From NCBI GenBank assembly GCA_000293845.2, contig ALYF01000003.1, positions 62,001 through 126,000 of the forward strand: a stretch of DNA of 64,000 nt, written 5' to 3'. Origin of the DNA: an alpha proteobacterium IMCC14465. Lineage in GTDB: Bacteria; Pseudomonadota; Alphaproteobacteria; RS24. Of this stretch, positions 48,582 through 54,812 are shown piece by piece. Numbering within the stretch: position 1 is the stretch's first letter; each line of letters opens with the position of its first letter. The notes under the pieces are model-generated. The model was not told the DNA's origin. It searched no databases and saw only the letters and a list, made by a program, of their open reading frames with translations. The translations under genes and the position numbers were made by a program.

Positions 48582-48630
48582 TTTTGCCTCCAGTTATTTA
48601 ATTTTAGTAACTGAAGATGACCTTATTGAT

Positions 48631-48648
48631 ATTACAGAAGTGTGACAA
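48631..48648 (-). promoter_or_regulatory. PHO box upstream of pstS
   Basis: Reading leftward, TTGTCAC-ACTT-CTGTAAT gives two 7-mers 11 bp apart, close to the PhoB consensus CTGTCAT-N4-CTGTCAT. It ends 50 bp before the pstS start codon, the expected place for a PhoB-activated promoter. Confidence 0.75.
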
Positions 48649-48766
48649 ATTCATAAAAAGCATCTACGCGTTACATATAACTGCAAAAATACAGTAAAAT
48701 CATGTGGATGACCCGCCAAATGCGGTCATTTCAGTGTTTTTGATTAATAACCATTAAATCGGAAAC

Positions 48767-49804: not shown

Positions 49805-49906
49805 TACCCAGCCAATAGCTCATGCATGATGCAGTAAGGTTACATAGTAACCCTTTTACCATAAAGCGACAGAAAACTTTTCGAGCGGCTTAGATAATCG
49901 ACAAAA

Positions 49907-52360
49907 TCAATCTTCATACCATTTTTTTGGTGGCGCTTTTCGTACCGATTTGCGTGGGCGAGGCTGCGCGCTTTGCCCGGCATTCAGCTCTTTCGTCGAG
50001 ACAGAGGCCTGTTTTTTTGTGGCAGGCTTCTTTTTAGATACGGGTGCTTGTTTGGGAGTTTCCACGCGGTCGGCAATATCACTTTTGAAAGGAATTTTCT
50101 CACTAATGGACGTGATAATATCCGGATTGAAAAGCGTTTTATTCAATGTCTCACGCAGTGACGACAGCGATGCATTAACCGAAGCTGATAATTTTTGGGT
50201 GATGGGTACTCTGGGTACTGAAGATGCTGTGGGTACTTTCGGCTTGTCAGTCTCTTGAGGAACGTCAAGTTTGGGCGCTTCCTCAGCAATTTCTTCTATA
50301 TTTTTTTCTTCACCACGTGACTCAGAAATTAATGCTTCTGGTGGCTGAACCTCTTGCGCAATTGGCGTACCTTCATGAGTGTCAAAAACACCATCAGCTT
50401 GTGACGGCTTATCAAGCGAAGGCGAGACCAGCGCCGTGGCGTCAACACTCTCAATCGTCCGCGCTGCATTTTTGCGGATATTACGGCGGATTTCGACAAA
50501 TGTCATATGCACGCCTCGGCTCAACACCAATATCAAAATACGCAGACTATCCGCCAGCATGCCAATAATATCGAGAAGAGTCTCGATAACAAACCGGAGC
50601 AAATAGACAAGGGCGCGGGCAATATAAATAAAGCCATCGCCCGTGCGCGCAGCAATTTCCAAAAGGCTTTGCCCAAATGCTTTAAGCAGACTGGAGAAAC
50701 GCAGAAACATCATGACAATCACTTTGCCGGACCGGCTACGGTGTTGGCGTCTTACATGTCTGTCCTCTGATAAAACAAAAGAGATGAACGCTAGGAATGT
50801 TCCCATTGTAGCGACAATGAGTGCCGTCGACCCGAACCAGAGCGTAGAAACAAATTTGACTTTTTCTTCAGGCAAATCTGCAACATCAAACCCACGCGCC
50901 CTTGCACGTGTAAAGTTCTCGCTACCTGCCGGCAAAAGCATGCTGTCTTTAAAGCACCATTCTTCAAGCGTACCACACACAATAGCTGTGAGCTGATAGA
51001 CCTGCACTTTTTCGACTTTTTCACGATATATCTTGCGTAGCTCATTACTGCGTTCAACCAGCCCACTCTTTTTTTCCTGTAACGCCGGAATTAACTGCGC
51101 CTGTGAACCGGACATTTCGAGCGAGGCCTGCTTTTGAACATTTATCTCGCCTATCTGTCTGTCAATTTGGGCATTAATAGTTTCGAGCCTTTTCGCATAA
51201 TCGGCTTTTGAGGTGGCAATGAGACGCTGAACTGTCTCGGTTTGCGCATTGCGAAGTTGCGAAAAACGCTCGGACTGAGACGCAATAATTTTGCGCAACC
51301 GGTCCTGCTCAGTCGACAGGCCACGCTGTCTGGTATCAAAACCAGAAATCGCAACACGCAACTCATCATCACGCTGGCTTTCGAGCTTGGCAATCGCCGC
51401 ACTTAACTCATCAATTTGGCTGTTCGTGGCAGAATTGATTTCCCGTATAATCTGAGACCGACCAAAAAAGAAATCATCAGTATTTTCAATTTGACTTTGC
51501 CGATTATCATTAATTCTTGAAATTTGTAATTTGATGTCGTCAATTTGCTGCTTGTAACGGCTATTAATATTATTGACCGCATCCTGCCTGAGGCGCGTGA
51601 CATCCTGAATAGCAGCACTGAGGCGGGAAATTTCTTCTCTGAGAGCTTCACCGGCATTGCCCCTGCTTTGCATCTGAAGACTATCCAGTCTTGCCGTCAG
51701 GGTTGTGAGGCTTTCATTATGTTCGCGTGCAGCAATATCAATGCGTCGCTTGCGGTCTGCCTCAAGATTTTCAATCGGTGTGGCAAATTGCTGACGGATT
51801 TGCTGCGGTGTTAAAGATGCGAAGCGGTTAATATCGCGATCAATGGTCTCAATCGCATCCAGCACTTCATATCTTTCATTCACAAGCTGGCGCGTCTGCT
51901 GCGTGATATTCGTGTTTTGTTGAATCAAGGCATTAAACATGGTCTCAAATGTAACAAATGTCAGCGCAGTGAGGCCCACGACAAATGCCAGTGTCATACC
52001 CAGCCGGTTAGATAGACGCGAATGGTAAAGCCCTGATGCGAGATAAATTTTGGTCGGTTCCAAAATCGCAATCACAACAAATGGCAAAGCCCCCATAACA
52101 GCACGCGTATGCACCCCAAAATCTCTTTCAGCTTCGGGGATATTTACAAATACGGAAATACCTTGAGAAAAAGCGATAAAAAGTCCGATTATTGCGGCAA
52201 CAATCTCAACAATCCATGCCGTAATATAAACTGTTCTACCAAGATTATAGCTTGAACTCATACCCGGATTAATATTGGGTGTAGCCGCAGACACCATATT
52301 TGCGGGGCTTACAGAGGCCTCAGCAGGTTTCTTCCCGGTTGAGGTTTTACGCCTGACCAT
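49907..52360 (-). CDS. Large membrane protein with long coiled coil, unrecognised
   Basis: An 817-residue protein I do not recognise. Three membrane helices (about 44-69, 88-108, 120-142) are followed by some 310 residues of charged coiled coil (about 146-455), then a Cys pair (C462, C469) and a globular patch, a fourth helix (about 505-531), and amphipathic helical segments (about 547-625, e.g. FIYIARALVYLLRFVIETLL). The C-terminus from 640 is disordered, Pro/Lys-rich and basic, ending KKWYED. The coiled coil shows no ATPase or nuclease motif. It precedes phoR on the same strand by 102 bp and may share its transcript. It could be a scaffold or envelope-organising protein. Confidence 0.7.
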   Translation of the reverse strand: MVRRKTSTGKKPAEASVSPANMVSAATPNINPGMSSSYNLGRTVYITAWIVEIVAAIIGLFIAFSQGISVFVNIPEAERDFGVHTRAVMGALPFVVIAILEPTKIYLASGLYHSRLSNRLGMTLAFVVGLTALTFVTFETMFNALIQQNTNITQQTRQLVNERYEVLDAIETIDRDINRFASLTPQQIRQQFATPIENLEADRKRRIDIAAREHNESLTTLTARLDSLQMQSRGNAGEALREEISRLSAAIQDVTRLRQDAVNNINSRYKQQIDDIKLQISRINDNRQSQIENTDDFFFGRSQIIREINSATNSQIDELSAAIAKLESQRDDELRVAISGFDTRQRGLSTEQDRLRKIIASQSERFSQLRNAQTETVQRLIATSKADYAKRLETINAQIDRQIGEINVQKQASLEMSGSQAQLIPALQEKKSGLVERSNELRKIYREKVEKVQVYQLTAIVCGTLEEWCFKDSMLLPAGSENFTRARARGFDVADLPEEKVKFVSTLWFGSTALIVATMGTFLAFISFVLSEDRHVRRQHRSRSGKVIVMMFLRFSSLLKAFGQSLLEIAARTGDGFIYIARALVYLLRFVIETLLDIIGMLADSLRILILVLSRGVHMTFVEIRRNIRKNAARTIESVDATALVSPSLDKPSQADGVFDTHEGTPIAQEVQPPEALISESRGEEKNIEEIAEEAPKLDVPQETDKPKVPTASSVPRVPITQKLSASVNASLSSLRETLNKTLFNPDIITSISEKIPFKSDIADRVETPKQAPVSKKKPATKKQASVSTKELNAGQSAQPRPRKSVRKAPPKKWYED

Positions 52361-53594: not shown

Positions 53595-54812
53595 TCAGAT
53601 GACGTCATAAACGGTGATGGTCAATGTTGCGTCGTCAGTTAACCCGCTATCATTGGTGACGACATAGCTAAGCGTTTCATGCACTTCCTGGTCATCACCG
53701 AAATCAATCTCATCGTCGGATTTTGCTACAAATGTAAATGACCCGCCTTCATTGCGGATGGTCATCGTTCCGTACTGCGTATCAATGATGTCGCCTGCTT
53801 CAACGGCCTGACCGTTAATGCTGACCAGACGCAAATCACTGCCATTCGGCGAACCGTCATCAGACAAGAGACCGGCCCGAACAGTTGCACTGTCGCCGAG
53901 ACTAACTGAATTATCCCGGGCAATAGGGGCATCACTGTTTGAAAAAGTGAAAACCAGTTCTGCCGTATCCGTATCGCCTTCTCTGTCGGTTATCGTATAG
54001 GTGAAAACATCACGGACTTCTTCCTGGCCATCAAAGTCGATGTTTTTCTTGGCCCGATAATCATAACCACCATTGCCTTTGATTCTCAGTGTTCCGTATT
54101 CACCTTCAAAGCGCGCACCTGCAGACAATTCTACACCATCAAGATGAGTGACTTTGATTTTGCTGTCCGCAACGACGTCATTATCGAGAACATTATCTCT
54201 TGACCGTTCACCGGCAAAAGTTTCTCTGGTATCATCGGTAGCTGTCGGCGCCGTGGTAATACCGTCATAGCTAACGGAGAAGACATCGCTGGTTGTATTA
54301 CCGTCCCAGTCAGTCAGCGTAATCCTGACAGATTCTACCGCCGTGTCTCCTGTATTGAGGGCATCCAGAATATCCTGCGTCGGCGAGCGATATTGCGCTT
54401 TTAAGGTGCCGGTCTGAAAATTACTGGTGTGATTGTAAATCGTCAGTGTTCCGCCCATTGCAAGATCAATTGTTTTGCTCATGCCGTAGAACTTTTCGCT
54501 GACATATTCGCCTTTTGAATTGAGATAGCTCAACGTGATGTCAACCGATGACTCAGCATCGCTATAGCTGCCCAATTCAAAATAGTTGAACCAGTTGTCG
54601 GTTGCGTCAAGCGCATACCATGCATCTTCAACCAGATAGGCATGATTGCCGGTAGTGGCTGCTTTCTGGCCGGTTGTGACGGCTGTATCCAAAGGCGATC
54701 GTAACTTAAGGGTTGGTGCCGTTCCGATTGTCGGCTGAAAGCCGTCTAGTATTGGCAAATCCAGATATGGTCCATCGCCATTATCTAATACATATTGTAT
54801 ATCTTGTGTCAT
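53595..54812 (-). CDS. VCBS/cadherin-like repeat protein, probably secreted
   Basis: A 405-residue acidic protein with no cysteine and no signal peptide, typical of type I secretion substrates. After an N-terminal domain (about 1-185; Thr/Asn/Asp-rich, with DITLSYLNSKG), two VCBS-like Ig domains follow: about 189-292 (DNDVVADSKIKVTHLDG, GTLRIKGNGGYDYRA, EVRDVFTYTITD) and about 298-402 (GTMTIRNEGGSFTFVA, EVHETLSYVVTNDSG). No RTX nonapeptides or secretion genes are nearby. The role is unknown, perhaps a surface adhesin remnant. Monocistronic with a terminator behind it. Confidence 0.8.
   Translation of the reverse strand: MTQDIQYVLDNGDGPYLDLPILDGFQPTIGTAPTLKLRSPLDTAVTTGQKAATTGNHAYLVEDAWYALDATDNWFNYFELGSYSDAESSVDITLSYLNSKGEYVSEKFYGMSKTIDLAMGGTLTIYNHTSNFQTGTLKAQYRSPTQDILDALNTGDTAVESVRITLTDWDGNTTSDVFSVSYDGITTAPTATDDTRETFAGERSRDNVLDNDVVADSKIKVTHLDGVELSAGARFEGEYGTLRIKGNGGYDYRAKKNIDFDGQEEVRDVFTYTITDREGDTDTAELVFTFSNSDAPIARDNSVSLGDSATVRAGLLSDDGSPNGSDLRLVSINGQAVEAGDIIDTQYGTMTIRNEGGSFTFVAKSDDEIDFGDDQEVHETLSYVVTNDSGLTDDATLTITVYDVI

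Follow-up and report, generated by a model that had tools for sequence, protein, structure and literature searches.

An unmodelled inner-membrane protein family with a predicted periplasmic hairpin, encoded beside phoR in a PS1-clade alphaproteobacterium

The window, i.e., the whole stretch of 64,000 nt that was analysed, belongs to the 1.92 Mb genome of a PS1-clade alphaproteobacterium, and carries a gene for an 817-residue protein that lies upstream of phoR and is separated from it by 102 bp (49805–49906). The original prediction described a membrane protein with a long coiled coil, resembling no known family, and proposed that it could be a membrane scaffold near the kinase, an organiser of the envelope or a tether for DNA. 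The locus raises two questions: what kind of protein this is, and whether its position next to phoR has any meaning.

The gene and its relatives

The reading frame begins with ATG and extends for 817 codons, and the same register on the opposite strand is interrupted by many stops. Orthologues from three other species of the host genus are 82–86% identical, and comparison with these gives dN/dS values of 0.07–0.08 overall, 0.02–0.04 in the membrane part and 0.04–0.07 in the coil. The membrane part and the cysteine-containing insert are the most constrained; the coil is also under strong constraint, and the tails are the least constrained. The predicted membrane-protein gene is real, with an intact frame and strong purifying selection among its orthologues in the four species, far above chance.

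No model of Pfam, NCBIfam, PHROGs or PADLOC matched the protein other than below threshold or in the coil alone, and a profile search of the PDB gave no match reaching the membrane part, so that the absence of a known family was upheld in all of these collections. The best PDB profile match (8qox_B, E 0.003) covered only the coil and was lost with the gammaproteobacterial profile. With the single sequence as query, homologues were found in only two genera of the PS1 family, the host genus (g1) and g3 (9/28 genomes). A profile search reached a genome that is called SAR11-like here, on our own reading and not from a record title (E 3.5e-28), while with a profile limited to the membrane core the search extended to f215 (E 3.2e-20) and f226 (E 4.1e-6), two gammaproteobacterial families in which a renewed search found the gene in 13/49 and 4/116 genomes, respectively. 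Class-wide samples gave matches in 3/367 alphaproteobacteria and, among 369 gammaproteobacteria, in one genome (G556), plus two marginal matches at loci that were not read. Other weak matches were dismissed on reading their loci, which showed a TRAP transporter permease (G291), a short repeat protein (G312), and unrelated reading frames or transporters (G062, G461 and G788).

The relatives diverge to about 17% identity, and a profile–profile comparison of PS1 and gammaproteobacterial members aligns the entire core of four membrane helices (E 2.6e-30, probability 99.8%). By these comparisons the homologues form a real, patchily spread and previously unmodelled family of predicted inner-membrane proteins in two proteobacterial classes. 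Residues invariant in all 25 aligned members include A48, W49, E52, G59 and I62 (TM1), E101, K104 and I105 (TM2), and T137, F138, E139 and T140 (TM3), together with P93, L133, F298, V504, W508, A513, G520 and L523. Short gammaproteobacterial members have 480–519 residues, so the minimal protein would consist of three helices, the coil, one helix and a short tail. The cysteine pair and the WYED end are confined to the PS1 branch, the latter being kept in both PS1 genera. PS1 members have amphipathic and basic tails, of which the SAR11-like protein has a shorter version; the tract at residues 531–630 is common to both PS1 genera and missing from gammaproteobacterial members.

Two of the records deserve mention. 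In a complete gammaproteobacterial genome of f215 (G1281, L090:7426-8705), the gene has broken up into two frames, of 114 and 230 aa, beside an rRNA operon, and is apparently a decaying copy. A record titled 'Opitutia bacterium isolate IN48' (L023, NZKY01000010.1) contains a homologue of PS1 type with about 80% identity to the window gene, and is for this reason probably mislabelled or a mixed bin.

Predicted anatomy and geometry of the hairpin

Hydropathy and sequence agree with the predicted order of three membrane helices, a long coil (about residues 142–455), the cysteine pair and a fourth helix, which peaks at residues 512–530 (Table 1). A four-helix anchor with a symmetric coil is, at the level of sequence, a well supported reading of this pattern. 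The amphipathic tract and basic tail of the original prediction can be refined: the last 118 residues are basic (net charge +12), residues 640–700 are acidic (−11), and residues ~546–615 are amphipathic to moderately hydrophobic with a peak of 2.1 at 595–613, and could conceivably hold one or two additional membrane helices.

Table 1. Features of the 817-residue protein and of the gap before phoR (window positions)
Feature	Residues	Position	Strand	Basis
Whole gene, 817 aa		49907..52360	-	reading frame; purifying selection
Basic, poorly conserved N-terminal tail, net +4, predicted cytosolic	1–38	52247..52360	-	charge counts
Three-helix membrane anchor: TM1 46–64, TM2 82–100, TM3 120–138	39–141	51938..52246	-	hydropathy, alignment
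Outgoing arm of predicted hairpin; E139 to F298 = 159	142–297	51470..51937	-	alignment, spacing, periodicity
Predicted hairpin tip, TDDFFFGRSQ	294–303	51452..51481	-	F298 in 25/25, F299 in 23/25
Returning arm of predicted hairpin, Q453-x-Y455 at its end; F298 to Y455 = 157	304–455	50996..51451	-	alignment, spacing
PS1-type insert, predicted hairpin base to TM4, C462/C469	456–506	50843..50995	-	alignment, hydropathy
TM4 region, W508 F509 S511 A513 G520	507–530	50771..50842	-	hydropathy, alignment
Arg-rich stretch and amphipathic helical tract	531–630	50471..50770	-	alignment
Variable low-complexity tail, acidic then basic, K-(x)-WYED end	631–817	49910..50470	-	alignment
CTGTCGCTTTATGGTAA, Pho-box-like (CTGTC-type) element in gap before phoR		49856..49872	-	largely kept in three further species of the genus

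The double phenylalanine is the most conserved feature within the coil and is flanked by turn-prone D, N or G residues (TDDFFFGR, DANFFTR, EEGGFFDD). It is also placed centrally. The spacing from E139 to F298 is 157–159 residues in 24 members, and that from F298 to Y455 of the Q453-x-Y455 motif (present in 24/25) is 157–158 in 21 members and 151 in three. Grouped by lineage, the outgoing and returning arms measure 159/157 in PS1, 157–159/158 in f215, and 158/151 or 157/158 in the other gammaproteobacterial groups. For the only strongly conserved motif inside a span of 316 residues, the chance of lying no more than about 1.5 residues from its middle is near 1% by simple proportion. Against equal arms, the return arm of the three Shewanella-like members is 7 residues shorter, the outgoing arm not having changed to match. 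The SAR11-like protein has an outgoing arm of 165 and a return arm of ~162, both about 6 residues longer, if VFRITT (~445–450) is taken as the QxY equivalent; this return arm is alignment-dependent, the automatic 25-sequence alignment shifting the Y455 column elsewhere (C-arm 219).

Hydrophobicity along the two arms of the window protein has helical periods of 3.66 and 3.60, significant by shuffling (p = 0.003 and 0.007); in the same test, the arms of several gammaproteobacterial members were not significant. At 0.1485 nm per residue, the predicted arms would be 23.3–23.6 nm long. Charge counts show an N-terminal tail that is neutral to positive, a loop between helices 1 and 2 that is neutral to negative in nearly all members, a positive loop between helices 2 and 3 in all members, and a strongly basic region after TM4 in PS1 members; in gammaproteobacterial members this last bias is weak. 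The distribution favours an N-in orientation. The coil would then be periplasmic, and the cysteine pair of PS1 members, in the same compartment, could oxidise and would be compatible with a disulfide. A stiff, antiparallel, periplasmic hairpin of about 23 nm, close in length to the width of the periplasm and with the phenylalanines at its tip, is therefore regarded as probable. The distance between the centres of the inner and outer membranes of E. coli is 30–32 nm in hyperosmotic conditions (PMC8824477), so that a 23 nm hairpin together with half of each membrane would be of similar magnitude, and it is plausible that such a hairpin would reach the outer membrane. Envelope signalling in E. 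coli depends on the inter-membrane distance (PMC5736177).

A possible role across the envelope

If the hairpin is periplasmic, the protein would sit in the inner membrane by four helices with both ends in the cytosol, and the segment between helices 3 and 4, with about 157 residues per arm, would hold the double-phenylalanine tip at a fixed distance from the membrane. The tip may then reach the outer membrane, or the space between peptidoglycan and outer membrane, and bind a putative partner there, while the anchor, with its invariant charged residues in or at the ends of the helices, would transmit this contact to the inner membrane or cytosol. The cytosolic tail of PS1 members, with its amphipathic helices and WYED end, may share in the coupling. 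A trans-envelope tether or sensor of this kind is a guess from shape, and falls a little short of being probable. The wider proposal of a new ruler or tether family that spans the periplasm, its arm lengths being set by periplasmic width and changing together, is more speculative and somewhat doubtful. An envelope-organising role, as originally suggested, fits the anatomy. The suggested tethering of DNA through the basic tail is conceivable, but no other part of the protein is less conserved than this tail.

Comparable designs are known. The Gram-positive Pip/YhgE and EsaA proteins have a multi-helix membrane anchor from which a long antiparallel coil extends through the envelope, and by description resemble the present family in both respects, but have one helix before the coil and several after it (the opposite arrangement), occur in different organisms and gave no Pfam match. 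Chemoreceptor cytoplasmic hairpins are long and antiparallel with a conserved tip, and their arm lengths change together, a likeness that again is by description; they are cytosolic, share no sequence with the family and lack a four-helix anchor. In Wzz-type polysaccharide co-polymerases, inner-membrane helices lie on either side of a periplasmic helical extension, as predicted here, but there are two helices, the extension is far shorter and there is no Pfam match.

The same architecture could be read in other ways. A periplasmic hairpin might belong to a channel or transporter, in which ions are gated or carried by charged residues in the membrane, and the hairpin serves as substrate guide or oligomerisation stalk instead of reaching to the outer membrane. 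The invariance of E52, E101, K104 and E139, and the position of the membrane part among the most conserved regions, would suit this; however, there are only four helices, no transporter model is similar, and the charges could equally form helix-packing salt bridges close to the cytosolic face, which makes the idea unlikely. Distant kinship with DUF4407 (PF14362), with the same role, draws on the shared order of three N-terminal membrane helices, coil and one C-terminal helix, as read by eye in the single DUF4407 protein examined, and on one of 19 members that touches PF14362 at E 0.0026. Against this, neither the window protein (at E<=1; gathering threshold 31.3 bits) nor its host genome matches PF14362, hhalign against the single DUF4407 protein gave a probability of 1.4–1.9% and no full-length alignment, similarity of sequence or profile is not significant, and the conserved residues of the family are not evident in DUF4407. 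Membership is unsupported by Pfam and the own-genome search, and the relationship is quite unlikely.

An envelope gene that protects against phages or toxins, by surface exclusion or defence, would account for the patchy spread, which is seen even inside a genus or family (13/49, 4/116), and there is an McrB-like gene in the vicinity of the SAR11-like copy. It is nevertheless a very improbable explanation: the PADLOC match is limited to coil-only similarity, the gene was found on none of 72,556 plasmids or 50,697 phages, and in one gammaproteobacterial genus its location near hrpB is mostly constant, its other neighbours being housekeeping genes. ZorA (Zorya, MotA/ExbB type) likewise carries a long helical tail behind three membrane helices, but the 817-residue protein has no MotA/ExbB domain, its coil is closed by a fourth helix, and this coil is predicted to be periplasmic whereas that of ZorA is cytosolic. 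ZorA was rejected, as the PADLOC match covers only residues 141–443 (E 0.0016) and Pfam MotA_ExbB gave no match. A phage tape measure (PHROG 1538) was likewise dropped as a coil-only match without tblastn matches in the phages or in IMG/VR scans. A phage or plasmid origin was rejected as these collections gave no match.

For the tether or sensor reading, the interest lies in a family without a model that spans two proteobacterial classes and whose arm length varies by no more than a few residues among members about 20% identical. A hairpin located in the periplasm would provide, through its length, a testable measure of envelope width and, through its FF tip, a defined bait with which to catch a partner in the outer membrane or cell wall. 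If the reading is true, the family would add an inner-membrane-anchored candidate beside Lpp-type tethers for sensing or fixing the distance between the membranes.

Gene neighbourhoods and the link to PhoR

PhoR of the window has no membrane helices of its own, as first noted (Kyte–Doolittle maximum 1.06 over the first 120 residues), and the 817-residue protein might act as its membrane scaffold, giving the kinase its missing anchor. If so, the two genes might be expected to stay together. The order coil gene–phoR–pstS–pstC–pstA is found in all four genomes of g1 that have the gene, and in this genus only: in g3, of the same family, the gene lies beside GST/SDR genes and a TonB/ExbB-like/DUF3450 cluster, in gammaproteobacteria it is beside hrpB and rRNA operons, pgpA or other genes, and no phoR or pst gene was seen in the stretches read around homologues outside g1. 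Genera g4 and g6 are without the coil gene and have a PhoR equally free of membrane helices; such a PhoR is the norm there and so does not need the coil gene. A coil that is predicted to be periplasmic from the charge distribution could not scaffold a cytosolic kinase. Further, phoR seems to have a promoter element of its own (Table 1), weak when taken alone, as 0.7 matches to the 1-mismatch pattern are expected per window by chance. The proposed scaffold is left with a probability close to negligible, and the link to PhoR looks incidental. The element suggests that phoR has its own promoter, and a second Pho-box-like sequence, TTGTCACACTTCTGTAAT, lies upstream of pstS (48630–48650, minus strand), suggesting separate phosphate-controlled promoters for pstS and phoR.

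No neighbouring gene recurred across lineages in the loci read from PS1, SAR11-like and gammaproteobacterial genomes, and for this reason no partner is indicated. In one g3 locus (L013:4541-9615), the homologue is downstream of a cluster in which a DUF3450 gene is followed by genes that are ExbB/ExbD/TonB-like from their size and order, and by a TPR gene. In the SAR11-like locus (L030), the homologue is followed after 5 bp by a gene for a one-helix coil protein of 364 aa with no Pfam family, a possible partner not seen elsewhere. This gene and a TerB-like gene occupy L030:1079-2170 and 663-1076, respectively, with the McrB-like gene further off. In the window, two genes away from the coil gene, a 405-aa protein (53595–54812) with apparent repeated cadherin/VCBS-like segments is possibly a surface adhesin.
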